Origin: Chloroflexota bacterium
Lineage (GTDB): Bacteria > Chloroflexota > Anaerolineae > Anaerolineales > Villigracilaceae
Assembly: GCA_016195815.1 (NCBI GenBank)
Contig: JACPYX010000018.1
Coordinates: forward strand, 1 to 64,000
Length of the DNA: 64,000 nt
Direction of reading: 5' to 3'
The notes under the pieces were generated by a model. That model saw only the letters and a program-made list of their open reading frames with translations. It ran no database searches and was not told where the DNA came from. Below, piece by piece: positions 2,345 through 53,236 of this stretch (position 1 is its first letter; every line of letters begins with the position of its first letter). A program made the position numbers and the translations under genes.

Positions 2345-2388
2345 TTTGTGGGAGGGCCTCCCGGCCCGTTTGCACCACGGAGGATCAT

Positions 2389-3108: not shown

Positions 3109-3184
3109 AAACCCTTCGATAAACTCAGGGCGAGTACTCGTTACCTAACTAATAGCAAGCCATTTCACTGACCTTAGGGTCGCT

Positions 3185-3351
3185 TCGCTGATGACGGCGG
3201 GTGTTCTTCATTTGAAGGACTTAATTTCCTGCCCAGGTGGAGACTGAAAGCAAATTTCAACCCAATTGGGTTGATCCCTTCGTGGGGCTTAAAAAGTCTT
3301 TGCCTGCAAAGTGGTAGGAGAGTTTCCTGCCAGAAATGGCAAAGACTTTTT
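3185..3351 (+). promoter_or_regulatory. L10 leader (rplJ autoregulatory RNA) with distal long stem
   Basis: The 265-base gap before rplJ carries words typical of the bacterial L10 leader: GACGGCGGGTG (about 3193), CTTAAT (about 3221) and CCTGCCCAGGTGGAGACTGAAAG (two blocks, 3229-3250). In the family, L10(L12)4 binds this RNA and represses rplJL. Downstream, AAAAAGTCTTTGCC at 3291-3304 pairs perfectly with 3338-3351, ending in a T-run, with a nested GGTAGGA/TCCTGCC hairpin. This could be an attenuator. The leader is recognised by sequence resemblance, not by covariance scoring. Confidence 0.75.
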
Positions 3352-3373
3352 ATTGAAAGGAGGTGAATACACA

Positions 3374-3904
3374 TTGGCTCTTACTAAACAACGCAAAGAT
3401 GAAGTCCTGGCAATTTATCAGGATTGGCTGAAGCGCAGTCAGGCTGTGATCCTTGTGGAATACACGGGCGCGAAGATGAAAGATTTGGATAGTATCCGCG
3501 CAAAGATCCGTGAATCCGGCGGAGAATTCCACGTTGTCAAGAACACCCTGGCCCGCCGCGCGTTTGCGGACCATGGAATGAATCTGTCCGAGGAATCCCT
3601 CGCCCGGTCAACAGCCGTCTCGTTTGCATTTGCAGACCCTGCCGCAACCGCCAAGGCGCTTTCCGACGCGACCAAAAGCATGGAATTCGTCAAGGTAAAG
3701 GGCGGCTTCCTTGCCGGACAGGCATTAAATACAGCGCAGGTCAAGGCATTGGCAGATCTTCCGCCGCTGCCGGTTGTCCGGGCACAGTTGCTTGGCACTC
3801 TGCAAGCCCCGGCTGGCAAGCTTGTTCGTACGATTGCTGAGCCGGCTCGTTCGCTTGCTTCGGTTTTCCGCGCATATTCAGAGCAGGCGCAGGCCGCGGC
3901 CTAG
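3374..3904 (+). CDS. rplJ: 50S ribosomal protein L10
   Basis: L10 is the stalk base that carries L7/L12 dimers. The 176-residue product begins LALTKQRKDEV and contains SQAVILVEYTGAKMKDLDSIRAKIRESGGEFHVVKNTLARRA in its N-terminal rRNA-binding domain and a C-terminal helix for L12 (PARSLASVFRAYSEQ). The start is TTG 3374, eight bases after AAAGGAGGTGA; the open frame extending upstream to 3311 overlaps the leader stem and is not a likely start. Confidence 0.96.
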   Translation: MALTKQRKDEVLAIYQDWLKRSQAVILVEYTGAKMKDLDSIRAKIRESGGEFHVVKNTLARRAFADHGMNLSEESLARSTAVSFAFADPAATAKALSDATKSMEFVKVKGGFLAGQALNTAQVKALADLPPLPVVRAQLLGTLQAPAGKLVRTIAEPARSLASVFRAYSEQAQAAA

Positions 3905-9943: not shown

Positions 9944-11551
9944 TTAGCCGGCTCGCTTCAATCTGCGGGCAATTCCGTTGATCACCGCCGCGAGTTCAGG
10001 GACTCGCAAGGCGAACATCATCGCCGCGTAGACCAGTCCGCCCAGGGCCACGCCGCCCAACCCGCTTATCCAAACCGAAGATTCGATCTGCGACCAAAAT
10101 ATAATAACCAGGCTCATTGCCAGCGTTCCAAGCGCGGCCTGAATGAAACCGCGCCAGATGTTCATGCCGTCCAATCCTTTCAAACGGCGGCGCATGAGAA
10201 TGAAGAGAGCGGTCATCTCCAGTGCGGTGGCGAAAGAATTTGCTAGGGCGAGTCCGCCGTGAGGAAGCCAGCCGAGTCTGCTGAATAAGGCCGAGAAGCC
10301 AAAACTGAAAAGGACGTTGAGCGTCATGGCCGCCGCGCCAACGAAGACCGGAGTCTTGGTATCGTGCAGGGCATAAAATGCGCGCGAGAGAATCTCAACC
10401 ATGTTATGACCGATCAGTCCAGCCGCGTACCAGAGCAAAGCCCACGCCACGAGGTCGGTTGAGCGCGCGTCGAAACTGCCGCGCTGAAATAGCAGAGAGA
10501 TCAACGGCTGGCGGAGCAGAATGATTCCCAGCGAAGCCGGAAGTGACAGGAACAGCACACCGCGCAAAGTCGCGGCCAGAGACGAGCGCATTTGTCCCGT
10601 CTCGCCTTGCGCGGCCTGCGCGGAAAATGTCGGCAGGGCGGCGATGGCAATCGCCTGCGCGATCACGACCTGCGGCATGGTCATGACCTGCCAGGCGTAT
10701 TTGATGGCGGATAGCGAGCCTTCGCTGAGTCCGCTGGCGATGATGACGTTGACTACGAAATTAAGTTGGACAACCGCAACGCCCAGCAAGCGCGGTCCCA
10801 TCAGTCTTCCCACTTCGCGAACAGATGGATTGTTGATGCCAAGACCCTCATCCCCCGCCCGTCTCCCATTGGGGGAGGGGATGGGGTGAGGGAGAATTTT
10901 GATTAGATCTGGAATTTGAACGCCAAGATGAAATGCCGCGCCTAAGGCAGCTCCCCAGGCCAGGCCGTAAACGCCCATGGATGGAACGAGGAAGATAAGT
11001 CCGAAGATCATTCCGAGCCAGTACATGCTCGGAGCCAGCGCGGGCAGGAGGAAGCGCTGATGCGCATTGAGGATACCCATCAACAATCCGCTTATGCCGA
11101 AGATGGCTGGCGTTAGCAATAGGATGCGTAACAGGGAAGCGGCCAGCGCCTGCTGGTCTGGGCTGAATTGCGGCGCGAGGATGTAACGGATGATCTGGGG
11201 CGCCAGCACAGCCGAGAGGATGCTCAGGGCGCTCAGGATGATCAAGATCAAATTGGCAATCGAAGACGCCAGTTTCCAGGCCGAGGCGCGTTCGTTTTTG
11301 GCAAGAAGAGTCGTGAATGTGGGAATAAATGCTGATGCCAGCGCGCCGCCTGCGACCAAGCTGAAAATCAAATCGGGATAAGTGGAGGCGGCATAGAACG
11401 CGTCAATGGCTTTGTCGGTGCCAAATGCGCGTGAGATCAAGATCTGCCGCACAAGGCCAATGATGTTGCTTAATGCAAAAGCCAGCATGATCGTCCCGGC
11501 AGCGCGGGCGATCTGGCGATTGGCAGTGTTTGGAATTTCAGACTCGTTCAT
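9944..11551 (-). CDS. murJ: Lipid II flippase MurJ (MviN family) with repeat-encoded insertion
   Basis: A 535-residue multi-pass membrane protein of the MOP superfamily, proposed to flip lipid II during peptidoglycan synthesis. It begins with the classical segment MLAFALSNIIGLVRQILISRAFG, TYPDLIFSLVAGGALASAFIP follows, and at least twelve hydrophobic helices are visible. Residues ~220-237 (PHPIPSPNGRRAGDEG) are encoded by a palindromic dispersed repeat and sit in a loop between helices. On the minus strand TATAAT (11568-11563) precedes the ATG by 11 bases. Confidence 0.93.
   Translation of the reverse strand: MNESEIPNTANRQIARAAGTIMLAFALSNIIGLVRQILISRAFGTDKAIDAFYAASTYPDLIFSLVAGGALASAFIPTFTTLLAKNERASAWKLASSIANLILIILSALSILSAVLAPQIIRYILAPQFSPDQQALAASLLRILLLTPAIFGISGLLMGILNAHQRFLLPALAPSMYWLGMIFGLIFLVPSMGVYGLAWGAALGAAFHLGVQIPDLIKILPHPIPSPNGRRAGDEGLGINNPSVREVGRLMGPRLLGVAVVQLNFVVNVIIASGLSEGSLSAIKYAWQVMTMPQVVIAQAIAIAALPTFSAQAAQGETGQMRSSLAATLRGVLFLSLPASLGIILLRQPLISLLFQRGSFDARSTDLVAWALLWYAAGLIGHNMVEILSRAFYALHDTKTPVFVGAAAMTLNVLFSFGFSALFSRLGWLPHGGLALANSFATALEMTALFILMRRRLKGLDGMNIWRGFIQAALGTLAMSLVIIFWSQIESSVWISGLGGVALGGLVYAAMMFALRVPELAAVINGIARRLKRAG
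10845..10892. repeat. Palindromic dispersed repeat inside murJ, in frame
   Basis: The element starts CCCTCATCCCC and ends GGGGTGAGGG, with CTCCC/GGGAG in the middle. A relative sits at 60946-60986. Here it is read in frame by murJ, adding about 16 residues. Confidence 0.75.
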
Positions 11552-11610
11552 GGGACGCGGGGATTATACCGTACTGTTTTAGTTGAAACGAAAGCTCATT
11601 AGAACATTAA

Positions 11611-11619
11611 TGCTATAAT
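11611..11619 (+). promoter_or_regulatory. Extended -10 promoter of the phospholipase-D-like gene
   Basis: TGCTATAAT is a consensus extended -10 element, followed after ~11 bases by a GGCGAGGAG ribosome site and ATG 11638. Confidence 0.65.
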
Positions 11620-11637
11620 TACGGCGAGGAGATTCCT

Positions 11638-12774
11638 ATGCTAAAAAAAATACTTGGCTTGTTTTTTGTCGGCATTCTGCTGGCTGCATGTCAGCCGCTG
11701 CCTGAAACTTCCAGCCCGGCGACGATTGCTCCCCCGCCCGACACTTCAGTGCCGGTCACACAACCTCCCTCCGGCCCGCCTCCATTGACTGAAATTCCGA
11801 TGCAGGTCGGCTATGGAGTGAGCGATTCGTGGTTTGAATTGTACTTTACCGACCCGACAAATCCGCTGGCAAAGCAAATAGCGGGCGGGCCGGATGGTCC
11901 GCTGGTAGCGGCGATTGATTCGGCGCGCGTCAGCGTGGATGCGGCCATGTACAGCCTGAGTCTTAACAGTGTGCGTGATGCGCTGATCCGCGCTCAGCAA
12001 CGCGGCGTACAGGTGCGCGTGGTGATGGAAAGCGATAATATGAATCGCGCTGACCCGCAGGCGTTGAAAGATGCGGGCATTCCCATGCTAGGCGACCGCC
12101 GCCAGGGATTGATGCACAACAAGTTCGTCGTGATTGACCGCTCCGAAGTGTGGACGGGTTCGATGAACTTCACCGATACAGGCGCATACAAAGACAACAA
12201 CAATCTGATGCGCATCCGCTCGACGAAAGTGGCCGAAGATTACGAGACCGAGTTCAACGAAATGTTCGTGGATGATAAATTTGGCACGAACGTTGTGGCG
12301 GCCACTCCGAATCCACGCGTGACGATTGACGGCACACCGCTCGATATTTATTTTTCTCCCGACGATAACATCCAGGCGGCTTTGGTTAATTTGCTCAACA
12401 ACGCCCAATCGAGCATTTATTTTATGGCCTATTCATTCACCGCAGATCCGCTGGGCGAGGCAATTCGTCAGAGAGCCGCGGCCGGCGTCAAAGTTTCGGG
12501 CGTGATGGAGTCCGATCAGGTCGCGTCCAATGTCGGCACGGAATATGACCTGTTTCGCACGGCAGGGCTGGATGTGCGCCTCGACGGCAACTCCGGCCTG
12601 ATGCATCACAAAGTCATGATCATTGATAATCAGATCGTGGTGATGGGCTCGTATAATTTTACCGCCAGCGCCGAGACAACCAACGATGAGAATGTGGTCG
12701 TGATCTATAATCCTGACATTGCCGCGCAGTACATGCTGGAGTATCAGCGCGTATACGCTGCAGCAAAGCCTTAG
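11638..12774 (+). CDS. Phospholipase D-like lipoprotein with two HKD motifs
   Basis: A 378-residue predicted secreted lipoprotein (lipobox ILLAAC) with a Pro-rich linker and two phospholipase-D domains. The catalytic HxK(x4)D motifs are MHNKFVVIDRSEVWTGSMNF and MHHKVMIIDNQIVVMGSYNF. Two HKD motifs in one chain form one active site. Family members hydrolyse phosphodiesters in lipids or nucleic acids; the order and surface location do not tell which here. The gene is flanked by a promoter and a strong terminator, so it is probably monocistronic. Confidence 0.92.
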   Translation: MLKKILGLFFVGILLAACQPLPETSSPATIAPPPDTSVPVTQPPSGPPPLTEIPMQVGYGVSDSWFELYFTDPTNPLAKQIAGGPDGPLVAAIDSARVSVDAAMYSLSLNSVRDALIRAQQRGVQVRVVMESDNMNRADPQALKDAGIPMLGDRRQGLMHNKFVVIDRSEVWTGSMNFTDTGAYKDNNNLMRIRSTKVAEDYETEFNEMFVDDKFGTNVVAATPNPRVTIDGTPLDIYFSPDDNIQAALVNLLNNAQSSIYFMAYSFTADPLGEAIRQRAAAGVKVSGVMESDQVASNVGTEYDLFRTAGLDVRLDGNSGLMHHKVMIIDNQIVVMGSYNFTASAETTNDENVVVIYNPDIAAQYMLEYQRVYAAAKP

Positions 12775-12792
12775 TCTGCGTTGATTGCGGCG

Positions 12793-12837
12793 ATCCCCGT
12801 TTCTGTCCGTAAATGGATGGCAACGGGGATTTTTTTG
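12793..12837 (+). terminator. Terminator after phospholipase-D-like gene
   Basis: ATCCCCGTT (12793-12801) pairs with AACGGGGAT (12822-12830) and is followed by seven T. Confidence 0.85.
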
Positions 12838-12909
12838 TCATCTGCCCGTAACCTTTGTGTGCGGCCAGCGACTATTCGGATGAAACCAATCCAACATAAG
12901 GAGTATGAA

Positions 12910-13680
12910 GTGAATAAATCAATCCGTTTGTTCTTGTTATCGGTGCTGATGCTGGCCGCGCTGGTGTTGAGCGCCTGCAGCGGCGCGGTCCCAGCCGGCG
13001 CGGCTCCTCGTGTCCAACAGAGCATTATCTTCACCGGCACAATCGAAGCTATCAACGGCAATCAATGGACGATCAGTGGGCAGACCATTACTGTCGCCCC
13101 ATCGGCTCTTAAAGGTCAGTTTGCAGTGGGTGATACTGTTCAAGTCCAGGGCGCGGTCGCAACAGATGGAACCATTACTGTCACTGGCATCGAAAAACCA
13201 AGCGCTGACTCTGCGACCCAGTCTCCAGAGATCGGGACGGAAACCCCGGATGTATCCAGTACCCCGGATGTTTCGGGCACGCCTCAAGTTGGCGAAACTC
13301 CGAATCCCAATGAAGTCGTCGGCCTGATCACTGCCATGGACGCGACAACCATTACCATTGACGGTGTAGTCTACAACCTGGCGGCTTTCAGCAAAATTGA
13401 CGGCTCCATTCAGGTCGGCGATACGGTCAAGTTGGAATTTATTACCAATGCAGACGGTACGTTGACGGTCCGGGAAGTCAACATCGCATCCGGCGACAGC
13501 AACGATAACGGCAATGTCAACGGCAACGAGAATGGCAATGACAACAGTCACGACAACGGCAACAGCAACGATAACGGCAACAGCAACGACAACGGCAAAG
13601 ACAGCGGCGGCAACAGCAACGACAGTGGCAGCAATGAGAACGGCCACGGCAGCGTCACTGCCGGCTACAGAATCTCATAA
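12910..13680 (+). CDS. DUF5666-type lipoprotein with Asn/Gly/Asp-rich tail
   Basis: A 256-residue predicted lipoprotein (LVLSAC) starting at GTG 12910, six bases after AAGGAG. It has two related beta modules: FTGTIEAINGNQWTISGQTI...GDTVQVQGA and VVGLITAMDATTITIDGVVY...GDTVKLEF, matching the DUF5666 pattern. The last ~60 residues are a low-complexity NDNGN/NGNEN repeat, plausibly a cell-wall-spanning or disordered linker. Function unknown. The adjacent anti-sigma protein carries the same module and tail, so the two proteins are related. Confidence 0.8.
   Translation: MNKSIRLFLLSVLMLAALVLSACSGAVPAGAAPRVQQSIIFTGTIEAINGNQWTISGQTITVAPSALKGQFAVGDTVQVQGAVATDGTITVTGIEKPSADSATQSPEIGTETPDVSSTPDVSGTPQVGETPNPNEVVGLITAMDATTITIDGVVYNLAAFSKIDGSIQVGDTVKLEFITNADGTLTVREVNIASGDSNDNGNVNGNENGNDNSHDNGNSNDNGNSNDNGKDSGGNSNDSGSNENGHGSVTAGYRIS
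13506..13640 (+). repeat. In-frame low-complexity repeat (AACGGCAACAGC-like units)
   Basis: Degenerate 12- to 18-base units reading N-D-N-G-N-S encode the tail of the DUF5666 lipoprotein. This is coding tandem repeat, not a CRISPR array. Confidence 0.8.
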
Positions 13681-13689
13681 ATAAATTTC

Positions 13690-13718
13690 CCTGTGAGGCA
13701 GGAAACCTGCCTCACAGG
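13690..13718 (+). promoter_or_regulatory. Perfect 13-bp hairpin upstream of sigma factor gene
   Basis: CCTGTGAGGCAGG, loop AAA, then its exact complement. No T-run follows, so termination is unlikely to be strong. TGATATACT (13723-13731), an extended -10 match, lies right behind it and about five bases before GTG 13736. Confidence 0.6.
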
Positions 13719-13735
13719 AGGATGATATACTGGGC

Positions 13736-14335
13736 GTGAACACACAACCCGCATTCTATTCCATCAATCGGACAGCTGTCACACCCATGCAGAACTTTGA
13801 CGAAAGTCAAGCGCTGGATGGCCTGCGAAATCTTGATTCACAGGCTATCGGCGCGGTGTATGATCAATATTTCCCCGCCGTCTATCGCTATGTACGTTAT
13901 CGCCTCAACGATGAACAACTCGCCGAAGATATCGCCAGCGATGTTTTCATGCGCCTGCTCGAAGCCCTGCAAAGCATGCGCGGCCCGCAGACCAATTTGA
14001 AGGCCTGGTTGCTTTCGACTGCATCGCACATTGTGGCTGATCATTTGCGCCGCGCATATCGGCGGCCGACTGAAGCTTTATCTGAAAACCAGCTCGATTC
14101 GGCTCCCGCTCCGCACGATGAGTTCGACCGCCGCGAACAGGCCCGTAATTTCCGGCAGGCCTATACTCAACTCACGCCCGAACAACAGCATGTTTTGGCC
14201 TTACGTTTCGGGCAGGGATTCTCATTGGAAGAAACTTCTTCTGTGTTGAAGAAAAACGTCAACGCAGTCAAAGCCCTCCAATTTCGCGCGCTGGCCGCAC
14301 TCCAGCGCAGCATTGGGGAGGTGGATCATGAATAA
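13736..14335 (+). CDS. ECF-type RNA polymerase sigma factor
   Basis: A 199-residue sigma-70 family protein of the ECF group. Region 2 is seen as IGAVYDQYFPAVYRYVRYRL...EDIASDVFMRLLEAL, and region 4 as LTPEQQHVLALRFGQGFSLEETSSVLKKNVNAVKALQFRALAAL (helix-turn-helix). GTG 13736 directly behind an extended -10 suggests a leaderless start; ATG 13787 (MQNFDES) is the alternative. The stop overlaps the following anti-sigma gene, the usual arrangement for a sigma/anti-sigma pair. Confidence 0.9.
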   Translation: MNTQPAFYSINRTAVTPMQNFDESQALDGLRNLDSQAIGAVYDQYFPAVYRYVRYRLNDEQLAEDIASDVFMRLLEALQSMRGPQTNLKAWLLSTASHIVADHLRRAYRRPTEALSENQLDSAPAPHDEFDRREQARNFRQAYTQLTPEQQHVLALRFGQGFSLEETSSVLKKNVNAVKALQFRALAALQRSIGEVDHE

Positions 14336-15515
14336 CAAATTATTCGAAGCCCTCGAAAATTGTTTGCAGGCCCTTGAGCAGGGACAGAATATTGACGCCG
14401 TATTGGCTCAATATCCTGACCTTGCACAGCAACTGCGCCCCATGCTTGAGGCCTCGCTTCAAGCACGGACGATGAGCGGCGAGGCCGTCCCAGGCGACGT
14501 TCAACGCCGCGCCCGCGCCCGACTGCTTCAACGCGCCGCCGAAATGCGCGAAGCCAAACGCGCGCCGCGCCGAAGGATGATCCCTGCCTTTTCGCGGCTG
14601 GCGATTACCCTTGGCTTGGCGGGCGCATTATTTCTCAGCAGCACCGGCCTTGTGAGCGCCTCATCAGGAGCATTGCCCGGCGATCAACTTTATCCGGTCA
14701 AACGTACATGGGAAGATGTGCGTTTGCTCTTCGTATTCAGCCCGCAAGGACGCGATATCCTGGAAAGCCAGTATGAACAGGAACGCCTCGACGAAATTGA
14801 TGAACTGCTCGTGATAAGACGCAACGCGCCGATCTCATTCTCCGGTTTGGTGACAAAGCAACAGGACGGGCAATGGCTGGTTTCAGGCATCCCGGTCCTG
14901 GTCACAACTGAGACGCGTTTGCCTGCAACCGCCATTTCGAACGGGGCGCCGGTCACAGTCATTGGAATGACGCACGCGGACGGCGTTGTCGACGCGCAGG
15001 AGATTCGGCTTCTCGCGCCGGGAGTTGCCTTGCCGCCGCTCGAGCCATCCGGCGATAATGACCAAAATGGCGAGAATGATAATGAGAACCACAACTTCAA
15101 TGCCGCGCCCACCCCGGTTGTAATATCTACGCCCGATACTTCCGCCTCTGCATCGCAAGAACCGCAGAAGCAGGAGCTTAATAGCTATGAATTTAGCGGC
15201 GTGGTCGAGTCGATGCAGGGCAATATCTGGAGCATCAATGGGCAGATTGTCACTGTGGATCAGGCCCAAATTGATGGCGCAGTGAAAGTTGGCGTTCTCG
15301 TAAAGTTTGAAGGCTATTATGACTCGAATGGAAAATTCATCGTCACAAAGATCGAAGTTAAATCCGGTGACGGCGATTCGTCCAAAGGCGATCAAAGCGG
15401 AAGCGGCTCCAGCGGCGATAATCAAAATATGAGTTCAAACACCAACGATCAGGCTAATGCCAACGACAACACGAATATAAATAGCAACGACAACGGCAAC
15501 GAAAATGAACATTAA
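14328..15515 (+). CDS. Membrane anti-sigma-like protein with DUF5667/DUF5666 modules
   Basis: A 395-residue protein, translationally coupled to the ECF sigma gene (8-base overlap; GGGAGG before ATG 14328). The N-terminus (LFEALENCLQALEQGQNIDAVLAQYPD) resembles the cytoplasmic part of DUF5667 anti-sigma-like proteins. One transmembrane helix (LAITLGLAGALFLSSTGLVSA) is followed by GALPGDQLYPVKRTWEDVRL, the DUF5667 signature. Two DUF5666-like beta modules and an Asn/Ser/Gly-rich tail follow. By context it should hold the sigma factor inactive at the membrane. This is inference from order and topology. Confidence 0.8.
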   Translation: MNNKLFEALENCLQALEQGQNIDAVLAQYPDLAQQLRPMLEASLQARTMSGEAVPGDVQRRARARLLQRAAEMREAKRAPRRRMIPAFSRLAITLGLAGALFLSSTGLVSASSGALPGDQLYPVKRTWEDVRLLFVFSPQGRDILESQYEQERLDEIDELLVIRRNAPISFSGLVTKQQDGQWLVSGIPVLVTTETRLPATAISNGAPVTVIGMTHADGVVDAQEIRLLAPGVALPPLEPSGDNDQNGENDNENHNFNAAPTPVVISTPDTSASASQEPQKQELNSYEFSGVVESMQGNIWSINGQIVTVDQAQIDGAVKVGVLVKFEGYYDSNGKFIVTKIEVKSGDGDSSKGDQSGSGSSGDNQNMSSNTNDQANANDNTNINSNDNGNENEH

Positions 15516-45796: not shown

Positions 45797-45958
45797 TGAG
45801 CTTGACAGGATTGGGTGGAAATCTGGGCAAACGCCTAGGTGTCGGCTTGTGCGCCCACCTGAAGGGAAAGCACTTTGGATACTTTTGTTCGCATTAACTT
45901 AAGCAACTTGATCCTGCCTTGATAGAACGGAGTGGGGGCGATAGTACTTTTTTCCTAC

Positions 45959-45987
45959 TTGACTTTATATGCTGTAAAACGTATATT
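45959..45987 (+). promoter_or_regulatory. Consensus sigma-70 promoter of the ubiquitin-like operon
   Basis: TTGACT (45959-45964), a 17-base spacer, and TATATT (45982-45987). It is the best-matching promoter in the window. The gap from 45797 contains no gene. Confidence 0.8.
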
Positions 45988-45997
45988 GTGTTTAGTT

Positions 45998-46011
45998 TGG
46001 TCTGACTACCA
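45998..46011 (+). promoter_or_regulatory. Candidate GntR-type operator
   Basis: TGGTCTGACTACCA is a dyad (TGGT/ACCA) resembling FadR-class GntR sites (TGGTC-GAC core). It lies just downstream of the -10 box and before ATG 46026, in a position where the GntR domain of the E1 fusion could block transcription. Confidence 0.5.
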
Positions 46012-46025
46012 TACCACAGGAAATC

Positions 46026-47663
46026 ATGAAAATTCAACCCGTTTCCCATTTGTCGCTTGCAGAGACTACCGCAGGTAAATTAGTGGCATCCATTCTGGAT
46101 GGCAGTTTGCAGCCTGGAACCCAGCTTCCGCCTGAACGTGAGCTAATGAGTCAATTGGGTATTAGCCGTTCTACGTTGCGTGAGGCTCTCAAGAGTTTAG
46201 AAGAGAAAAAGTTGATTGAATCGCGCCCGCATGTTGGCTGGTTCGCACGTGCGATTGATGCATCGAATATGACCCAGGCAAAGGAAATGGCGGGGAGCGC
46301 TGCACAAGCCGCTTCTCGCCGAGCGACGAGCGAGCCACCAACCGGACCGTTGCGCGTGCCAATTGCACCCGATAAACCCATCCACATCCCGAATTTGAAA
46401 AAAGATCGAGGAGGGACTTTTGAATTTATCTCATGGTGGGAACGCGAGAAAGTTCAGAATGCCAGGGTTTTGGTGATTGGGGCCGGCGCGTTGGGCAATG
46501 AAGTAATTAAAAACCTTGCGCTGATGGGTGTTGGCAACCTGTTCATTGTGGATTTCGATAAAGTGGAAGCGGCTAATTTGAGTCGCTCAGTTTTATTCCG
46601 TGAAACGGATAACAATCGCAGCAAAGCCGAAATAGCGGCAGCGCGGGCGAAATCAATTAATCCGGATGTGCATGTTCAATATTTGAATGGGGATGTGACC
46701 ACTCAATTAGGATTGGGCGTTTTTCGCCGCATGGATGTTGTGATTGGATGTCTCGATAACCGTGAGGCCCGTTTGGCGGTCAATCGCTTTTGTTATTGGG
46801 TGAACAAACCCTGGGTGGATGGTGCTATTCAGGAACTGCTGGGACTGGCACGCGTCTTTGTGCCCGGACAAGGTGCTTGCTACGAATGCACGCTGACTGA
46901 ACAGGCCTTGCGCGATCTCTCGTTACGTTACTCATGCCCGTTGCTTGCCCGTCAGAATATTTTGCTTGGGAAAGTTCCAACTACGCCGACTATTGCATCC
47001 ATTATCGGTGGAATGCAATCTCAGGAAGCGTTAAAGCTTATAAACAAGATGCCTGTTGAACCTGGAAAAGTAATCCACTATAACGGCATGGTCAATGAAA
47101 TGCATACGACAGCTTACGTTGCCCGCGATGATTGTGAAAGTCATTGGATGTATGGGGATATCACGGAATTGCCTGCGCGCGCCGAACATACCACTCTTGC
47201 GGATTTGCTTCGTATCGCTCGCGCCGACCTCGGACCGGATGCTATGATCGAGCTTGATCAGGAGTTGATCACATCTCTTGAATGCCCTAACTGCCATACC
47301 GTGGAGCATGTGTTGCGGCCTCTGAGCGAGGTCAGCTTCGAGGCTGGTCATTGCCCAACCTGCGGCATACTACGCGAGTCAACGCTGACCCATATCGTTT
47401 CAGGCGAGGAAAACTTTCTGCATCGCACGCTTGACAGTGTTGGCATACCGCCCTTGCACATTGTGCGCGCACATAACGGCGTTGAATATCGTTTTTATGA
47501 ATTGACTGGTGATTTGCCAGAAGCCCTGCATTTCCGTCATTTTGAGCGATCACGCGTTGATGTTTCAGCCACAGCGCGTGGCCGGGTACATATCAAAGGC
47601 GAAGTAAAGTTGAAAGGTATCACAACCAAACCCACTCATGGGCGCGTGAAATTGCGTGGATGA
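46026..47663 (+). CDS. GntR winged-helix fused to a ThiF/E1-like ubiquitin-activating protein
   Basis: A 545-residue fusion. Residues ~9-75 are a GntR winged helix (GTQLPPERELMSQLGISRSTLREALKSL). After a linker, residues ~130-360 form an E1/ThiF adenylation domain: ATP loop GAGALG (152-157), Asp176 (IVDFDKVEAANLSRS), Arg187, Lys200, Asp244 (GCLDNREAR). CYEC is at 285-288, and Cys304 in RYSCPLL is the likely thioester cysteine. CPNC (420-423) and CPTC (443-446) form a zinc ribbon. The tail repeats RVHIK and RVKLRG. By family it adenylates the C-terminal glycine of a ubiquitin-like protein and passes it to an E2. It is the first gene of the operon; CAGGAAA precedes the ATG. Confidence 0.9.
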   Translation: MKIQPVSHLSLAETTAGKLVASILDGSLQPGTQLPPERELMSQLGISRSTLREALKSLEEKKLIESRPHVGWFARAIDASNMTQAKEMAGSAAQAASRRATSEPPTGPLRVPIAPDKPIHIPNLKKDRGGTFEFISWWEREKVQNARVLVIGAGALGNEVIKNLALMGVGNLFIVDFDKVEAANLSRSVLFRETDNNRSKAEIAAARAKSINPDVHVQYLNGDVTTQLGLGVFRRMDVVIGCLDNREARLAVNRFCYWVNKPWVDGAIQELLGLARVFVPGQGACYECTLTEQALRDLSLRYSCPLLARQNILLGKVPTTPTIASIIGGMQSQEALKLINKMPVEPGKVIHYNGMVNEMHTTAYVARDDCESHWMYGDITELPARAEHTTLADLLRIARADLGPDAMIELDQELITSLECPNCHTVEHVLRPLSEVSFEAGHCPTCGILRESTLTHIVSGEENFLHRTLDSVGIPPLHIVRAHNGVEYRFYELTGDLPEALHFRHFERSRVDVSATARGRVHIKGEVKLKGITTKPTHGRVKLRG

Positions 47664-48525
47664 AATCAGGCTTTATATGGCTTTGAGAATTGCTAATGCG
47701 ATGAGCGTATATAACTCTGACAGAACACCCCAGCGATGGCACTTGCTGCGTAAATTATTTTTGCTGCTCCTGCTGATGGTTGCGCTTGCGCTCGGTTTGG
47801 TCATCGTATTTCGCCAGAAAAGCAATATTCCGTTTTTGTTGTTCAGCATATCGGCGGATGCCAGTTTGGGTCTGGCGGCAGGCTTTGGATCCCGGATTGT
47901 GTTGCGCGACCGAAACTGGATGATTCGAGGTATCGCATCGGCAGCCATGTCCGTAATCGGCTTGGCAGTGTTGGGTTACTTTACTGAATGGCGGGCCGGC
48001 ATTGGTCCGCTGCAATTCGGACGGCCAGAAGTAGATTGGCTCGATCTGGCTCACATGGTAATTGGTATTGATATATCCTGGATTGCATTGCGCGCTTGGC
48101 ATCAACCTGTAGGCGGTGTTGAACATCAACCAACCGGCTTGCTAAAGCGTGTAAGTGGCCGTAAACGAATTCGTTCATCTGGCGCAGTATCCGCCAATGC
48201 CCAGCCCAAGATTCATTTACCTGGCTCAAGCCCCACGCTTCAACCGAGGATAAAACGCAGAAAACCGGAACCTTCTTTAATTACCAAAGCGGTCAGGCCA
48301 GCTATGATCAAACCGGCCCGTGCCAGGCGATGGAATCCCCTGCGCCGCAGGCCGCCAGATATTCAGTTGTCGGTTTATGAAGAGCATCGCTGTCCGTACT
48401 GTCTTGAAGAGGTTAATCGCAAAGATCCACGCGGGGTAGTGGAGTGTGAAGTCTGCCACACATTGCATCATAAAGACTGTTGGGATATTACCGGTTCCTG
48501 TCAAGTGCCACATCTAAATACTTAA
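47656..48525 (+). CDS. Multi-pass membrane protein with C-terminal RING-like zinc domain (E3 candidate)
   Basis: A 289-residue protein. Four hydrophobic helices lie at about 33-52, 59-78, 92-109 and 131-148, followed by a basic linker (~160-235). The C-terminus is a RING/treble-clef domain: CPYC (246-249), CEVC (264-267), HH (271-272), DCW (275), Cys282. The spacing resembles prokaryotic RING fingers found next to E1/E2/JAB genes. The likely role is to bring the E2 to substrates at the membrane. The start is GTG 47656, overlapping the E1 stop; ATG 47677 or 47701 are alternatives. E3 activity is inference. Confidence 0.82.
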   Translation: MDEIRLYMALRIANAMSVYNSDRTPQRWHLLRKLFLLLLLMVALALGLVIVFRQKSNIPFLLFSISADASLGLAAGFGSRIVLRDRNWMIRGIASAAMSVIGLAVLGYFTEWRAGIGPLQFGRPEVDWLDLAHMVIGIDISWIALRAWHQPVGGVEHQPTGLLKRVSGRKRIRSSGAVSANAQPKIHLPGSSPTLQPRIKRRKPEPSLITKAVRPAMIKPARARRWNPLRRRPPDIQLSVYEEHRCPYCLEEVNRKDPRGVVECEVCHTLHHKDCWDITGSCQVPHLNT

Positions 48526-48540
48526 TCCGGAGGGAACAGT

Positions 48541-49455
48541 ATGCCTGATCTGAATGTAACGATTGTTTTGCCAAGCGGCGGCGCTCGAACTGCGGAAGTG
48601 CCCGATGACGTGAATGTTCATGACCTGTTGTCGGAATTCATATCTTTGTTGCAGTTGCCGACAATTGGGCCGGATGGACGGCCCATGGCTTATCGCCTAG
48701 ACAGCAAGGCGTTGGGCCGCGAATTGAAAGAAGATGAGACCTTGGCCGCGGCGGGAATTCCAAGTGACGATCGTTTAATGGTGACCGCCGATATCACGGC
48801 GGGTGCTGGAACAAACGTGGTGGCCGAAAGCCCTCGCATGCGCCGCTTGCGCGCTGATTATGAACTAATGCAGGAAATGGCATCACGCACCGACCTGATC
48901 AGCTTCGTAGCCCAGTCACCGCGTCCGAATCTGCCGCCTGAGCGCTATATTGTCACCTTTAAATGCAAGAGCATCGCGACTGTTGATCGTCAGGGTAATC
49001 CGCGGTTTAGTGAAAATCATCAAGTGGAGATTTACCTTCACAACCAGTATCCCCAACGCTGGCCGGGCATGAAATGGCTTACGCCCATTTGGCATCCCAA
49101 CATCAATCATTTGAACGGAAGCGTCTGCATTGATGCGGCCTGGTGGACGGCCAGCCGTTCATTAGACCGGCTGGTGATCATGCTGGGCGAAATGTTGCAA
49201 TATAAAAATTACCATGATGACCCAACCAAACCGCCGTTCCCGTGGGACCCCGAAGCGGCGCGCTGGAGCCGGGAGTACCGCAAGACACATCCAAACATCT
49301 TCCCGCTGGATCATCGTGAGTTGATGCGTCCCGAGCGCGTCAAACTTAATTCAGGCAAAGATGATAGCAAAAAGAAACCTGCGATTAAGCTTGAGGCTAA
49401 TCGGCCTGCTGCGAAGCCTGAAATTAAATCCAAGTCCAGGGTCCATATTAAGTAG
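48541..49455 (+). CDS. E2-like ubiquitin-conjugating enzyme with N-terminal ubiquitin-like domain
   Basis: A 304-residue fusion. Residues 1-88 are a YukD-like beta-grasp ubiquitin-like domain, about 62 of 88 residues identical to the free Ubl encoded next. Residues ~95-255 are a UBC fold: YIVTFKCKSI, FSENHQVEIYLHNQYPQRWPG, and the active site WHPNINHLNGSVCID with His185-Pro186-Asn187 and catalytic Cys196. WW at 201-202 and the helix SLDRLVIMLGEMLQY follow. The lysine-rich tail ends SRVHIK, like the E1 and VWA tails. GGAGGGAACAGT precedes the ATG. Confidence 0.92.
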   Translation: MPDLNVTIVLPSGGARTAEVPDDVNVHDLLSEFISLLQLPTIGPDGRPMAYRLDSKALGRELKEDETLAAAGIPSDDRLMVTADITAGAGTNVVAESPRMRRLRADYELMQEMASRTDLISFVAQSPRPNLPPERYIVTFKCKSIATVDRQGNPRFSENHQVEIYLHNQYPQRWPGMKWLTPIWHPNINHLNGSVCIDAAWWTASRSLDRLVIMLGEMLQYKNYHDDPTKPPFPWDPEAARWSREYRKTHPNIFPLDHRELMRPERVKLNSGKDDSKKKPAIKLEANRPAAKPEIKSKSRVHIK

Positions 49456-49526
49456 CGATTTCCCGCGCGGCGTAAACCGGTTTTGTAAGAGTCGAGTTCA
49501 ATCAGATTTAGAAAGGAGAATAAGCC

Positions 49527-49793
49527 ATGTCAGATGTACCCGTCACAATTGTGCTTCCTTCAGGAGGCACCCGCAATGCGGAGGTTCCAAATGACGTACC
49601 GGTGAAAGAGCTGATTCCCGAGCTGACTACCTCGCTGGAGTTGCCGGTCACGGGTCCGGATGGACGCGCCATGTCGTATCGTCTGGATAGCAAGGCGCTT
49701 GGCCGTGAACTGAAAGAGGAAGAGACGCTTTCAGCAGCTGGCATCCCGCAGAATGATCGGCTGATGATGACTGCCGATGTAACGGCCGGATAG
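49527..49793 (+). CDS. Ubiquitin-like modifier protein (YukD-like beta-grasp)
   Basis: An 88-residue stand-alone beta-grasp protein: VTIVLPSGGTRNAEVPNDVPVKEL, YRLDSKALGRELKEEETL, AAGIPQNDRLMMTADVTAG, where segments are given in order. It ends in a single exposed C-terminal glycine after Thr-Ala, so no proteolytic maturation would be needed. Between E2 and JAMM genes it is the obvious conjugated modifier. It nearly duplicates the N-terminal domain of the E2. AAAGGAG precedes ATG 49527. Confidence 0.9.
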   Translation: MSDVPVTIVLPSGGTRNAEVPNDVPVKELIPELTTSLELPVTGPDGRAMSYRLDSKALGRELKEEETLSAAGIPQNDRLMMTADVTAG

Positions 49794-49812
49794 ATTCGGT
49801 TCGATGTCTTTT

Positions 49813-49846
49813 CTCGCCGTGTCTGTCATCCGACAGACACGGCGAG
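49813..49846 (+). promoter_or_regulatory. Intercistronic 15-bp hairpin after the ubiquitin-like gene
   Basis: CTCGCCGTGTCTGTC, loop ATCC, then the exact complement. It begins 20 bases after the Ubl stop and has no T-run. It could stabilise the upstream mRNA or reduce downstream expression, raising Ubl over JAMM. It also argues against ATG 49804 as the JAMM start. Confidence 0.6.
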
Positions 49847-49860
49847 AGTCGAAAGTATTT

Positions 49861-50514
49861 ATGATATCCAGATTTGGTATTCGTCTATTGCCTTCCGATA
49901 TGACTCAGCCTATCACCACCCCGATTCCTTTAAAAAAGGCCATTCGCTGGTACTCATCTTATGATGCTTCCGGTTTGACGCCGCTCGTATCGGCGTTTAT
50001 GACGCAGCCAGCATATAGCCGTGTTTGCGTTCATTCAGTCAGCGATACGAGAAATGAGGTAGGCGGGATTCTCATCGGCCAGTGGTGTGTGGACGAAAAT
50101 AATGAACAATTCATTGTGATTGAGCATGCTCTTCCTGCCCGTTACACGCGGCAGGGCAGTGTCTATTTGACCTTTACTCAGGATAGTTTGGTGGATATCC
50201 ATGAGCAGATTGATACCAATTACAAAGGCCAGAAAATTCTGGGATGGTATCACACCCACCCAAGCATGGGAGTTTTTCTTTCCCATTATGATACATGGTT
50301 GCATAATCACTTTTTTCCGGAACCATGGCAGGTGGCGCTTGTGGTCGAACCTGTTTCATCAACCGGCGGTTTTTTCGTCCGCCAGAAAAATGGATTATTT
50401 GATCCAACCCGATATTTCGGTTTCTACGAACTGGATGGTAATTATGGTCGCAGCATGGTGAACTGGACCAACCTTTACCAATTTGAAGAAAAGGAAGGAG
50501 ATGCTTCCAAATGA
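49861..50514 (+). CDS. JAB/JAMM-family metalloprotease (deconjugase)
   Basis: A 217-residue protein from ATG 49861 (ATG 49804 and 49900 are alternatives). It has the complete JAMM zinc motif: Glu in RNEVGGILIGQ, then GWYHTHPSMGVFLSHYD with the H-x-H-(7)-S-x2-D spacing. JAMM proteases next to ubiquitin-like proteins remove modifiers from targets or release fused modifiers. It may process the Ubl-E2 fusion after Thr-Ala-Gly as well as act on conjugates. The stop overlaps the next ATG (ATGA). Confidence 0.9.
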   Translation: MISRFGIRLLPSDMTQPITTPIPLKKAIRWYSSYDASGLTPLVSAFMTQPAYSRVCVHSVSDTRNEVGGILIGQWCVDENNEQFIVIEHALPARYTRQGSVYLTFTQDSLVDIHEQIDTNYKGQKILGWYHTHPSMGVFLSHYDTWLHNHFFPEPWQVALVVEPVSSTGGFFVRQKNGLFDPTRYFGFYELDGNYGRSMVNWTNLYQFEEKEGDASK

Positions 50515-51368
50515 GTAGACGAATGCGTACATACTTTTATGCATTGCTCGGCGCTCTTGGCGGGCTGATCGGCTGGCAGGCAAGTGATTTGCTGGGCCTG
50601 TCTTTTGCCTCAAGCTTGTATTTAAGCGAGGCGGTTGTTGGCGCGTTGGTTGGTCTGTGCATTGGCCTTTTTATCGGGATCACAGAAGGCCTGATGACGC
50701 GTAACGCTGTTCAAGCCGCAAAGTCCGGCCTATTCAGCGGCCTGCTTGGGCTGGCGGCCGGCGCGATTGGCCTGCCGTTAAGCGAATTTCTGTTTCAATC
50801 TGTTGGTGCAGGCATGTTGGGACGCGCCCTTGGCTGGGGCGTGTTTGGCCTGCTGATTGGCTTCGCCGAGGGCGTGGTTGGAAAGAGCCAGATTTGGAAA
50901 GGCATGCTCGGTGGATTGCTCGGCGGGGCCTTGGGCGGTGTGTTGCTCGAGTCGGTTCATAACTGGCTCAAAGACCCGCTCACTGGAAAAGCCGCTGGCC
51001 TGGTCTTGCTTGGTGCTTCGGTTGGCGCGTTCATCTCGTTGATCGTTGTATTGCTCTCACGCGCCTGGCTCGAAGTTACTTCGGGCAAACTCAAAGGCAC
51101 CGAGTTTATTCTCGATAAATTCATGCGCGCAGGTGGCCCGGCAATTGCCATTGGTAGTTCGCCGTTGAAATCTGAGATCGTGCTGCCAGACCCTGATATC
51201 GCCCCTCAACATGCCATGTTGACCGGCGACGGAAACCAGTTTAGCGTTAAAGATATAAGCCTCTCGGGTACGTATATCAACAACAAAAAGATCGAGCTTG
51301 CCAGGCTCGCCAATGGACAAAAAATCCGAATGGGCAATACCGAGATGGTTTATCACGAAAAGAGGTAG
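50511..51368 (+). CDS. Glycine-rich multi-pass membrane protein with C-terminal FHA domain
   Basis: A 285-residue protein. About six glycine-zipper-like helices (residues 8-185, GALVGLCIGLFIG, GGLLGGALGGVLL) are followed by an FHA domain (~195-283) with GSS (215-217), His234 and SGTYINN (252-258). FHA domains read phosphothreonine. It connects this ubiquitin-like system to Ser/Thr phosphorylation at the membrane, although no kinase gene is present here. It overlaps the JAMM gene by four bases and the VWA gene follows by two bases. Confidence 0.88.
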   Translation: MSRRMRTYFYALLGALGGLIGWQASDLLGLSFASSLYLSEAVVGALVGLCIGLFIGITEGLMTRNAVQAAKSGLFSGLLGLAAGAIGLPLSEFLFQSVGAGMLGRALGWGVFGLLIGFAEGVVGKSQIWKGMLGGLLGGALGGVLLESVHNWLKDPLTGKAAGLVLLGASVGAFISLIVVLLSRAWLEVTSGKLKGTEFILDKFMRAGGPAIAIGSSPLKSEIVLPDPDIAPQHAMLTGDGNQFSVKDISLSGTYINNKKIELARLANGQKIRMGNTEMVYHEKR

Positions 51369-51370
51369 CC

Positions 51371-52501
51371 ATGTCCAAGACCATGCGCATCATTCTGACC
51401 CTCAACCTGCTCCTGTTTCTGACGATCTGGTCCACCCCGGCCACATTTGCGCAGGATGCAGGCACTCAAGTGCACATAACGCAGGTGGACAATTCCAAAT
51501 TCCCGCAAGTGACTGTTTATGTCTCAGTGACGGACGCGTCCGGTGAGCCGATCGGTGTTGATCCAAACACCATTCAACTTTCTGAGAACGGCCAGGCGCT
51601 CCAGGCAACAAATGTCAACAGTTCAGGCGATCAAAAGGGACCGGCGATAATCACAACGCTGTTGGTAATTGATGTCTCTGGCAGTATGGCGAATGGCAGC
51701 AAGATGGAGGGCGCAAAAACAGCCGCCAAGGCCTACATAGATCAAATGCGCCCAGGCGACCAGGCTGGCGTGATTGCATTTAATACTGATGTGAAAATAG
51801 CGCAGGATGTTACGACAGATCGTCAGGCGTTAATCACGGCGATCGATTCGCTTCAGCCATTGGGAAATACTGCCATGTTTGATGGGCTGCTTAAGTCTGT
51901 CGAGACTTTGGCAAATGTATCCGGTCGTAAGGCGATCATCCTCTTGAGTGATGGTATTGACAATCGTAGTAAAGCCAAAGAGGACGATGTTATTAAATCT
52001 ATTGGCTCGGCCGGGCTTACTATCTCAACCATCGGCCTGGGCGACCCACAACAAGTTGGCAACAATTTTGGCTTGGATGAGCCCGCCTTGAAATCCCTTT
52101 CTCAGCGTGCGGGCGGCGCCTATAGTTTTGCAACCGATCCGGCGGCTTTGGCTTCTGTCTATCAACTTTACGGACGCACCTTGCAGAGTGAGTATGCTTT
52201 TACATATACTTCGCCATCTACCTTGCGAGACGGAGTCAACCGCACCCTGACAGTCTCAATTAATGGTGGCGCCCTGTCCGCAAATTCACGCTATAACCCG
52301 GGCGGCGTATTGCCGGAAGTTGCCAGCCAATCCTGGCCGCTCTTTGGGACGATCCTAATCGTCTTGCTGGCTCTGCTGGTTATCCCCATGCTTGTGGGAA
52401 AAGGCATGCAAATGATGGGAGCGGGGCGCCAGAAGGGACGCATAAAACTTGGCGGTCAACCTGCCAATGCCCAACCAAGAGGCCGCGTGAAAATGAAATG
52501 A
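51371..52501 (+). CDS. Membrane-anchored VWA-domain protein
   Basis: A 376-residue protein with a signal peptide (LNLLLFLTIWSTPATFA), an N-terminal beta region, and a VWA domain with an intact MIDAS: DVSGS (Asp101, Ser103, Ser105), Thr167 in GNTAMFDG and Asp194 in LLSDGIDN. A C-terminal helix (FGTILIVLLALLVIPMLV, ~325-342) anchors it, leaving a short cytoplasmic tail that carries GRIKLGG and ends GRVKMK. That motif matches the E1 and E2 tails. It is the last gene of the operon; a strong terminator follows. Confidence 0.9.
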   Translation: MSKTMRIILTLNLLLFLTIWSTPATFAQDAGTQVHITQVDNSKFPQVTVYVSVTDASGEPIGVDPNTIQLSENGQALQATNVNSSGDQKGPAIITTLLVIDVSGSMANGSKMEGAKTAAKAYIDQMRPGDQAGVIAFNTDVKIAQDVTTDRQALITAIDSLQPLGNTAMFDGLLKSVETLANVSGRKAIILLSDGIDNRSKAKEDDVIKSIGSAGLTISTIGLGDPQQVGNNFGLDEPALKSLSQRAGGAYSFATDPAALASVYQLYGRTLQSEYAFTYTSPSTLRDGVNRTLTVSINGGALSANSRYNPGGVLPEVASQSWPLFGTILIVLLALLVIPMLVGKGMQMMGAGRQKGRIKLGGQPANAQPRGRVKMK

Positions 52502-52540
52502 ATAAGAGCCCGTTTTCAAAAGAAAACGGGCTCTTATTAT
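52501..52540. terminator. Bidirectional terminator at the end of the ubiquitin-like operon
   Basis: AATAAGAGCCCGTTTT (52501-52516), loop CAAAAG, exact complement (52523-52538). It serves the operon and the convergent lexA. Confidence 0.92.
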
Positions 52541-52561
52541 CACTATAAATTTATCGGGCAG

Positions 52562-53236
52562 TTACGACATCATTTCCACTTTGCGGATGACCATTACGAC
52601 TTTACCTTTGATCTCCACCGGTTCATCCTTTTTGAGCATGATAGGTTTCATGGTCGGATTGGCAGGTTGAAGACGGAACCCATCCTTCTCTTTGTAAAAA
52701 TATTTTAGAGTCGTCTCGTTTTTGTCCGGTAACCAGACTGCAACCATGTCGCCGTTCTTTGCATCCTGTGTGGGTTTCATGACAACAATATCGCCGTCAT
52801 TGACCATGGCGTCTATCATTGAATTCCCCTGTACTTCCAGCGCAAAGAACTGTTTGCCTTTTTCGCGCGAGGGCATTAGCGATGAAGCGATCTCAACCGA
52901 CTCTTCTGCATCGAAATAATTGAAATCAGAAGCAGGAACGGGAATCGGTTCACCAGCTTGAATTCGCCCAAGAACAGGGACGCGGAACATTTCGCCGATA
53001 GGGGATTGACCGGTCACGCGCAGGCCGCGTGAAATCTTCCGGTCACGCTCGATATGGCCTGTTTTTTCCAGTTGATCGAGATAGTAATTCACTACCGAAG
53101 TCGATGAGATACCACAGCTTTCGCCAATTTCACGAATTGATGGGGGATGCTTGTGTTTGCGTTGGTATTCCTGAATAAAATCCAGGATCTTCTGGTGGCG
53201 TTCACCCAGGCCTTTGCTTTTTCGAACCATCATCAT
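52562..53236 (-). CDS. lexA: LexA repressor
   Basis: A 224-residue SOS repressor/autoprotease. The winged helix is RHQKILDFIQEYQRKHKHPPS followed by GISSTSVVNYYLDQLEKTG. The cleavage site is Ala-Gly in RIQAGEPI, the catalytic Ser lies in QGNSMIDAMV and the Lys in ETTLKYFYK. AGGAGG precedes ATG 53236. A GAACAATTGTTC site lies about 75 bases upstream. The gene is divergent from fmt. Confidence 0.95.
   Translation of the reverse strand: MMMVRKSKGLGERHQKILDFIQEYQRKHKHPPSIREIGESCGISSTSVVNYYLDQLEKTGHIERDRKISRGLRVTGQSPIGEMFRVPVLGRIQAGEPIPVPASDFNYFDAEESVEIASSLMPSREKGKQFFALEVQGNSMIDAMVNDGDIVVMKPTQDAKNGDMVAVWLPDKNETTLKYFYKEKDGFRLQPANPTMKPIMLKKDEPVEIKGKVVMVIRKVEMMS

Follow-up and report, generated by a model that had tools for sequence, protein, structure and literature searches.

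A seven-gene ubiquitin-like conjugation operon of Chloroflexota whose activating enzyme may double as its transcriptional repressor

The stretch of DNA analysed here, called the window throughout, is the 64,000 nucleotides at positions 1 to 64,000 of contig JACPYX010000018.1 from a Chloroflexota bacterium (assembly GCA_016195815.1), and the system in question is a ubiquitin-like gene cluster at 46026-52501. Seven open reading frames (ORFs) lie there on one strand, in the order GntR-E1 (an activating enzyme, E1, behind a DNA-binding domain), RING, Ubl-E2 (a ubiquitin-like protein, Ubl, fused to a conjugating enzyme, E2), free Ubl, JAMM, FHA and VWA. The initial annotation had described seven co-directional genes of these kinds, and all of them were recovered, with Pfam assigning to each the family that had been named. 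We consider it moderately probable, on the sequence evidence set out below, that they form a working conjugation system, of the YukD-Ubl type, in which the E1 doubles as transcriptional repressor. The features of the locus are as follows.

45959..45987, plus strand: sigma-70-like promoter, TTGACT, 17 nucleotides, TATATT, the best of 9 sites with 10/12 matches.
45998..46016, plus strand: operator TGGTCTGACTACCATACCA, predicted binding site of the GntR domain and the sole exact pattern match in its own genome.
46026..47663, plus strand: GntR-E1 (Pfam GntR 5.5e-20 and ThiF 1e-55), with a winged helix at residues 12-73, the ThiF/E1 adenylation domain at 138-369, Cys304, CxxC pairs and the C-terminal end GRVKLRG.
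47677..48525, plus strand: membrane RING protein with a C-terminal Prok-RING_1 finger (Pfam Prok-RING_1 5.5e-07), start uncertain.
48541..49455, plus strand: Ubl-E2 fusion (Pfam YukD 2e-08 and UQ_con 4.4e-11), with a YukD-like Ubl at residues 1-88 ending TADITAG, a ubiquitin-conjugating (UBC) domain at about 93-256 with HPN and Cys196, and a disordered tail ending SRVHIK.
49527..49793, plus strand: free YukD-like Ubl modifier of 88 residues ending TADVTAG (Pfam YukD 5e-12).
49804..50514, plus strand: JAMM/JAB peptidase (Pfam JAB 4.8e-09), start uncertain and probably further downstream.
50511..51368, plus strand: membrane protein with a C-terminal FHA domain (Pfam FHA 2e-12) that is without the usual phosphate-binding residues.
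51371..52501, plus strand: predicted exported VWA protein (Pfam VWA 5.9e-18) with a single C-terminal membrane segment and a short inner tail ending GRVKMK.
52501..52538, no strand assigned: 17-pair stem between the VWA gene and a convergent lexA, terminator-like on the minus strand.

Comparative analysis was based on 117 loci with an E2, collapsed on identical E2 ends to 90 distinct ones (L065 and L066, two contig ends of one genome, were counted separately), and truncated copies were excluded from the counts for each protein. The full seven-gene order was found in 75 of the 90 distinct loci and no alternative order was seen, which exceeds chance; contig ends cut 14 of the 15 incomplete loci. 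L168 alone (9976-15299) is without FHA and VWA genes, despite 7.4 kb of remaining sequence, and carries oligopeptide-transporter-like ORFs in their place, which means that these two genes are not essential to the gene set. Inspection of the 90 loci for a separation of the E1, E2 and Ubl genes, a finding that would speak against a conjugation operon, left that claim standing. The genes had further been described as overlapping or closely spaced: the co-directional ORFs are confirmed, and the overlap of E1 and RING is doubtful, as the RING ORF opens at GTG 47656 and its homologues begin further downstream. Homologues of the JAMM ORF, which opens at 49804, do likewise, so the annotated starts of both probably lie upstream of the real ones and the E1-RING overlap may be unreal.

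The residues singled out in the initial annotation as the working parts of each enzyme are retained among the homologues. The ATP-binding motif G.GALGN[ED] and the RYSC motif holding Cys304 are present in 76/76 full-length E1s (69/76 by a narrower CxxC-YSCP pattern), while HPN and the catalytic cysteine, Cys196 in the window, are kept in 87/87 E2s. The RING-like domain keeps its zinc ligands, C..C, C..C, HH and C, and a C-x(2,3)-H end in 87/87, the latter with an additional invariant His beyond the last Cys; the JAMM residues are present in 82/82 and the closest solved sequence is an RPN11-like JAMM. Narrower first patterns had returned 78/87 for RING and 80/82 for JAMM, and the non-matching copies still held the ligands. 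Of 85 closed copies of the free Ubl, 84 have Gly as their last residue and one ends TAGGR. Alignments and Pfam searches covered 70 of the available E1 proteins, all of which showed both GntR and ThiF, and 50 of the available RING proteins, all of which matched Prok-RING_1 at E 0.01. A motif just before the RING, [IV]x[LFI] in 71/87, is weak, had no control and is not counted. The description of the locus as a complete bacterial ubiquitin-like conjugation operon is therefore well supported by its families, its kept catalytic residues and its fixed gene order.

UBE2K is the closest solved sequence to the E2, and in the second model of the window E2 (82 sequences; predicted local distance difference test, pLDDT, 82.9) residues 96-256 align to UBE2K with Z 12.7 over 140 residues at a root-mean-square deviation (rmsd) of 3.5. 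Residues 1-89 of the same model align to chain 7b9f_X of the mycobacterial ESX-5 secretion complex (Z 11.9, 81 residues aligned, rmsd 1.9), a chain that we take to be EccD5, and the free Ubl gave no match to solved sequences at E 1. This likeness and the Pfam family name YukD are the grounds for another reading, in which the YukD-like proteins are type VII-style structural parts that are never conjugated and E1 and E2 are relics. It also counts against conjugation that Bacillus YukD is reportedly not conjugated, as cited in a 2006 survey that itself puts YukD in secretion neighbourhoods (PMC1779556). We nevertheless find this reading scarcely credible, because the catalytic residues of E1, E2, RING and JAMM are kept, the Gly end of the free Ubl is nearly invariant, and a further YukD-like match was found in only one of the 12 operon genomes searched, of 36. 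Partners of type VII systems (FtsK-like ATPase, WXG100) were not recognised by eye among the flanking ORF groups seen in at least five loci, no genome search for WXG100 having been made. In another family of the phylum, L187, L188 and L189 hold N-terminal YukD-like domains on long proteins whose later parts are WD40-repeat-like.

The fused Ubl closely resembles the free one, with a median identity of 63.5 of 88 positions (range 40 to 73) over 72 loci, a comparison that omits 11 fusions with a variant ending. At a threshold of at least 95%, 42 positions are conserved in both sets, six in the free set only and one in the fused set only. Its Gly tail, D[IV]TAG, is found in 86/86 fusions and 86/87 E2s, the exception being the unfused E2 of L183, and the residue that follows TAD[IV]TAG in the fusions (n = 77) is most often A (45), then G (19), S (12) and K (1). 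As a fused tail is not activatable unless cut, its invariance suggests that the JAMM protein cuts Ubl from Ubl-E2, or that the fused Ubl shares a binding partner with the free one. The JAMM of Caldiarchaeum cleaves a linear fusion of ubiquitin and green fluorescent protein (PMC5654768), which is the activity that Ubl-E2 would need here.

The initial annotation left the role of the GntR domain open; most likely this domain lets the E1 regulate its own operon from a single conserved operator, as the following comparisons of protein and DNA sequence suggest. The closest solved sequences to the E1 are eukaryotic UBA7 and UBA1, and its N-terminus matches PdhR (5kvr) and FadR chains. Across 70 E1s the winged helix has the invariant residues E37, R38, R48, R52, L55 and G71, and C304 is invariant too. 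DNA contacts of Escherichia coli FadR include R35, R45 and R49 (PMC4259882), and by our reading of the alignment R38, R48 and R52 of the E1 appear to occupy their places. With FadR/PdhR-type GntR repressors the protein thus shares a winged helix, DNA-contacting Arg and a TGGT..GACC-type site (PMC4259882), two fadL probes for FadR in the same source carrying TGGTCCGACC and TGGTCTGA. Unlike them, GntR-E1 lacks the effector-binding C-terminal domain of the FadR family, which is replaced by a ubiquitin-type activating enzyme (ThiF/E1); it may work like a GntR regulator but does not belong to the FadR subfamily.

Upstream of the E1 genes a single conserved block was found, TGGTCTGACCA and then nnATACCA, immediately behind the -10 box. 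A palindromic operator near its own promoter is a trait of GntR regulators, and a predicted site of that kind is present here: TGGTCnGACYR lies within 200 nucleotides upstream of E1, at a median of 30 nucleotides before the start, in 64 of the 76 distinct loci that have at least 110 nucleotides before E1, and among the remaining 12, by reading, 11 have sites with one- or two-base variants and L164 has none. The longer exact site, TGGTCTGACYANNANACCA, occurs once per genome, in front of E1, in 28 of the 36 operon genomes; the other eight comprise two with one-base variants, one with a two-base variant and five in which E1 is cut before its start, and a reversed-pattern control occurred once in total across all 36. 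G159, related at the level of the phylum only and carrying an E2 without a fused Ubl, retains GntR-E1 and the core TGGTCTGACCA. A rare operator, present once per genome and placed before E1, makes the E1 most likely the repressor of its own operon, and the homodimeric state of MoeB (PMC12355090) is consistent with a two-fold site. The scans of the region itself were hardly enriched, with 9 promoter sites in 45800-52700 against 7.1 expected from shuffles and 10 terminator-like sites against 7.7, so that the promoter call depends on place and conservation; by reading, many E1 upstreams carry similar -35/-10 pairs at the corresponding position.

A domain fusion alone leaves the role of the GntR domain unfixed, and it might instead anchor E1 to DNA or serve another regulon. 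Of some bearing on this are the 35 genomes in which no E2 was found, three of which hold an exact operator match. One match, in G001, lies upstream of a GntR-E1 gene (86% identical), which shows that G001 holds at least part of the operon; the other two lie between argG-like and argH-like genes and inside an ATPase gene. These two can be taken to favour a wider regulon, and with two of 34 E2-negative genomes holding one exact operator each, a single match can be chance, which also weakens the case for autoregulation. On the other side, the exact site of the 28 operon genomes stands once per genome and behind the E1 promoter, and we regard an anchor or a separate regulon as improbable.

Alongside the predicted self-regulation of E1, the C-terminal ends of E1, E2 and VWA form the second feature that runs through the operon. 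A strict PRIRLK-like end is found in 88 of 89 closed E2 copies and 60 of 74 VWA proteins, compared with 3/366 flanking ORFs of at least 200 codons, and in none of the RING (0/88), Ubl (0/85), JAMM (0/84) or FHA (0/79) proteins. A looser pattern, [RK][IV]x[LIVFM] within the last ten residues, is met in E1 73/87, E2 69/89, VWA 53/74 and flanking ORFs 10/366. In E2, pairs of sequences agree in residue class at 0.89 to 0.96 over the last four positions and at 0.16 to 0.44 over positions -8 to -30, and after collapsing at 80% identity the E2 tail is kept in 23/23 groups. The unfused E2 of G159 retains its tail, KKRIKIK, so the fused Ubl cannot be the only partner of the tail. Median net charge is -7 for the free Ubl and +4 for the last 12 residues of E2 and of VWA. 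From these patterns, the common tail is most likely a docking strand and its partner, judged from charge, most likely the acidic Ubl.

Several observations weigh against a single shared docking strand. The strict pattern is present in only 20/87 E1s, and with E2 and VWA scoring lower by the looser one, the E1 tails appear alike to, rather than the same as, those of E2 and VWA. Class agreement over the last four positions, no shifts being allowed, is 0.43-0.47 for VWA and 0.36-0.43 for E1. The VWA tail is kept in only 12/17 groups after collapsing at 80% identity, and a divergent clade among the losses has a different end. In the good model of E2 the tail is disordered (residues 269-304, pLDDT below 50). 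As to docking of the tail on its own Ubl or UBC domain, the single-chain models comprise a poor model 1 (pLDDT 67.2) and model 2, at 82.9, with the tail disordered. The E1s of a sister operon, described below, end without the common tail. Among individual loci, L155, L156 and L158-L160 have E1 tails like PR[IV]V[VL]H or PKIVVH, and their VWA ends are of WD[ED] type, not the common motif.

The lysines of these tails offer a different explanation, in which the conjugation system has the tail as acceptor: the tail lysines of E2, VWA and E1 would be the sites of modification and the system would mainly tag itself. Lys is the last residue in 80 of 89 E2s, the E2 of Caldiarchaeum is auto-mono-ubiquitylated on a C-terminal lysine (PMC5654768), and the E2/VWA form of the tail ends no other convincing gene of its own genome. 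What is kept is nevertheless the hydrophobic/basic alternation rather than Lys: the last residue of E2 is Arg in 7 copies, Asn in one and Ser in one, and Lys is absent from the last six residues of one E2 (PRIHLR) and of E1s with ends like RVHLID or PRVVVH. We judge self-tagging unlikely. A role of the tail as a general substrate tag was also considered and dropped, because two patterns gave 19 and 9 matches in the DNA of the own genome against 22 and 5 for reversed controls, the first no more than chance and the second hardly more. That scan covered the own genome, with patterns that exclude E1-type tails, and just three of its 28 matches end ORFs of more than 150 codons, namely those of E2 and VWA and one of 506 codons that ends HIKISE and resembles an aminoacyl-tRNA synthetase.

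The initial annotation had also proposed a membrane-linked, phosphorylation-sensitive system, and these two parts fared differently. Hydropathy gives two hydrophobic segments in the RING protein, four in the FHA protein, and a signal-like and a C-terminal segment in the VWA protein, in agreement with a link to the membrane. From this arrangement the VWA protein is most likely located outside, with a short tail inside. Phosphorylation sensing by the FHA domain, by contrast, finds no support in the sequence, since residues of the phosphate site, located by alignment with GarA, are missing: the phosphate-binding Gly-Arg is replaced by Gly-Ser in 79/79, while only 7 of 71 copies readable by pattern retain the Ser of SRxH. 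The VWA domain has DxSxS in 73/73, and the other two positions of its metal ion-dependent adhesion site (MIDAS) are found in 51/73 and 67/73 by one pattern, with both present in 66/73 by another.

Among 150 relatives searched with the E2, 36 were positive, own genome included; this is a lower bound, as E2-negative genomes may hold parts of the operon (G001 does), and each positive genome gave at least two matches because the free Ubl also matches. A phylum-wide profile search of 400 genomes matched 16, of which nine have this operon type, two the sister operon and five weak or partial matches. GTDB genome contigs were also scanned, the sole look into other phyla, with patterns that can pick up none but close relatives, and this returned 101 relatives; the best 80 of 101 have titles naming members of Chloroflexota or Anaerolineae and include the cultured carriers Pelolinea submarina MO-CFX1, Leptolinea tardivitalis YMTK-2 and Leptolinea sp. 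HRD-7. The identity of E2 tracks kinship, at 83-89% within the genus and 67-73% in other families, and a tblastn search with E2 against 72,556 plasmid and 50,697 phage records gave no match. Downstream lies lexA in 19/90 loci, and upstream lie ribosomal-protein ORFs in 13 to 19 loci, the flank families being verified by Pfam in L032 and the window only and many loci having short flanks. On this sequence record the cluster reads as an old chromosomal operon, mostly vertically kept and often lost. In the window, genes for ribosomal proteins L11, L1 and L10 are found at 1919-3901, some 42 kb upstream; in several relatives the Ubl operon lies close behind the L11/L1/L10 cluster, so a rearrangement or insertion may intervene here.

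An antiviral defence operon, of the kind of BIL or the E1-E2-JAB systems of CBASS, would draw on the same enzymes, and the PADLOC models for E1-E2 and JAB components do match the E1 and JAMM proteins (best 6.4e-18 and 2.7e-08). RING, E2, Ubl, FHA and VWA are without a PADLOC match at E 0.1, however, and the ribosomal-protein and lexA neighbours, the failure of E2 to match plasmids or phages and an identity that falls with kinship, as in vertical descent, make a defence role very improbable. A placement in a defence island or on a mobile element likewise found no support in PADLOC, the flanks or the plasmid and phage searches. Degradation by a proteasome, driven by the Ubl, was rejected because the Pfam proteasome family gave no match in any of the 12 operon genomes searched (of 36), in a method that detected the family in 10 of 14 known genomes, E. 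coli included.

The kind of operon is already known. In 2011 Burroughs, Iyer and Aravind reportedly described prokaryotic RINGs in neighbourhoods with E1, E2, JAB and YukD-like Ubls, a set like the one found here, and their abstract is said to have proposed already a possible conjugation of such Ubls. That description is not known to include the operator or the common tail. BilABCD acts in phage defence. It shares Ubl, E2, JAB and E1 in one operon, and differs in that its modifier BilA has two Ubl domains trimmed by BilC, its E2, BilB, has a CEHH motif, and its four genes include no RING (PMC11354881), whereas a tandem-Ubl modifier in a four-gene operon was not found here, the locus having a single-domain free Ubl among seven genes with a RING. 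Complete ubiquitin-like operons exist in some bacteria (PMC5654768). The operon of Caldiarchaeum subterraneum likewise has E1, E2, a small RING and an Rpn11-type JAMM, and its full cascade was reconstituted; its ubiquitin is archaeal and trimmed to GG, and GntR, a Ubl-E2 fusion, FHA and VWA go unmentioned in the available part of that report (PMC5654768).

Related operons occur within the phylum. The sister operon of L184 and L185, from another family of the same class, has an E1 that is 56-57% identical over residues 119-503, a Ubl ending VTAG, an E2 and JAB, and differs by an E1 without GntR, an E2 without Ubl, two JAB proteins and no match to FHA or VWA. It lies at about 5994-15821 in L184 and about 636-12639 in L185, with a dynamin-like GTPase gene and a CAP-domain gene alongside; a Prok-RING_1 protein was seen in L184, and an S49 peptidase gene precedes the operon in L185. 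A more distant operon, L186 142-3411, has E2 (30%), E1 (35%), a small Ubl-like ORF recognised by eye and a protein with a cysteine-rich end and no Pfam match. Among the papers listed from the open literature, subscription journals being mostly uncovered, no title or opening of an abstract describes a GntR-E1 fusion, and we make no claim that the operon itself is undescribed. The self-regulating E1 and the shared tail look new.

Domains, kept residues, the operator with its rarity and the tail motif are read directly from the sequences, and on them we place the following scheme. The E1 would adenylate the C-terminal Gly88 of the free Ubl and carry it on Cys304, from which it would pass to Cys196 of the E2; the membrane RING would then recruit the charged E2 to the inner membrane and the target proteins there, and the JAMM peptidase would strip the tag and may also separate Ubl from the Ubl-E2 fusion. 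An E1 dimer would present two winged helices of FadR type and bind the single operator over the likely transcription start of its own operon. The biotin ligase BirA combines adenylating activity with a winged helix, acts as repressor of the operon that encodes it and responds to biotinyl-AMP. GntR-E1 would be its counterpart by analogy, an adenylating enzyme with its own winged helix whose modifier is a Ubl rather than biotin. Since the E1 takes the place of the effector domain, how GntR-E1 binds DNA should depend on its state of loading with ATP and Ubl, in the manner of BirA and biotinyl-AMP, so that an ample supply of Ubl or the exhaustion of targets would shut the operon. As a docking strand, the common tail of E1, E2 and VWA would bring the enzymes together on a single partner, for which the acidic Ubl is the likeliest candidate. 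Every reaction named here is something that we infer, as are the mode of control (repression, not activation), the signal, the targets and what the tail binds.

Overall, the seven genes may be pictured, tentatively and as a possibility rather than a likelihood, as a system in which the E1 is its own gene switch, reading the pool of free and loaded modifier, and in which a shared strand assembles E1, E2, the membrane E3 and the surface VWA protein around that modifier, so that a binding event of VWA outside the cell could reach both Ubl tagging at the membrane and gene control. Since the control element sits within the E1 and is paired with a single DNA site that is both short and rare, one protein and one oligonucleotide suffice to test how the modifier pool is linked to transcription, and the common tail would offer a handle for finding the hub of the complex.

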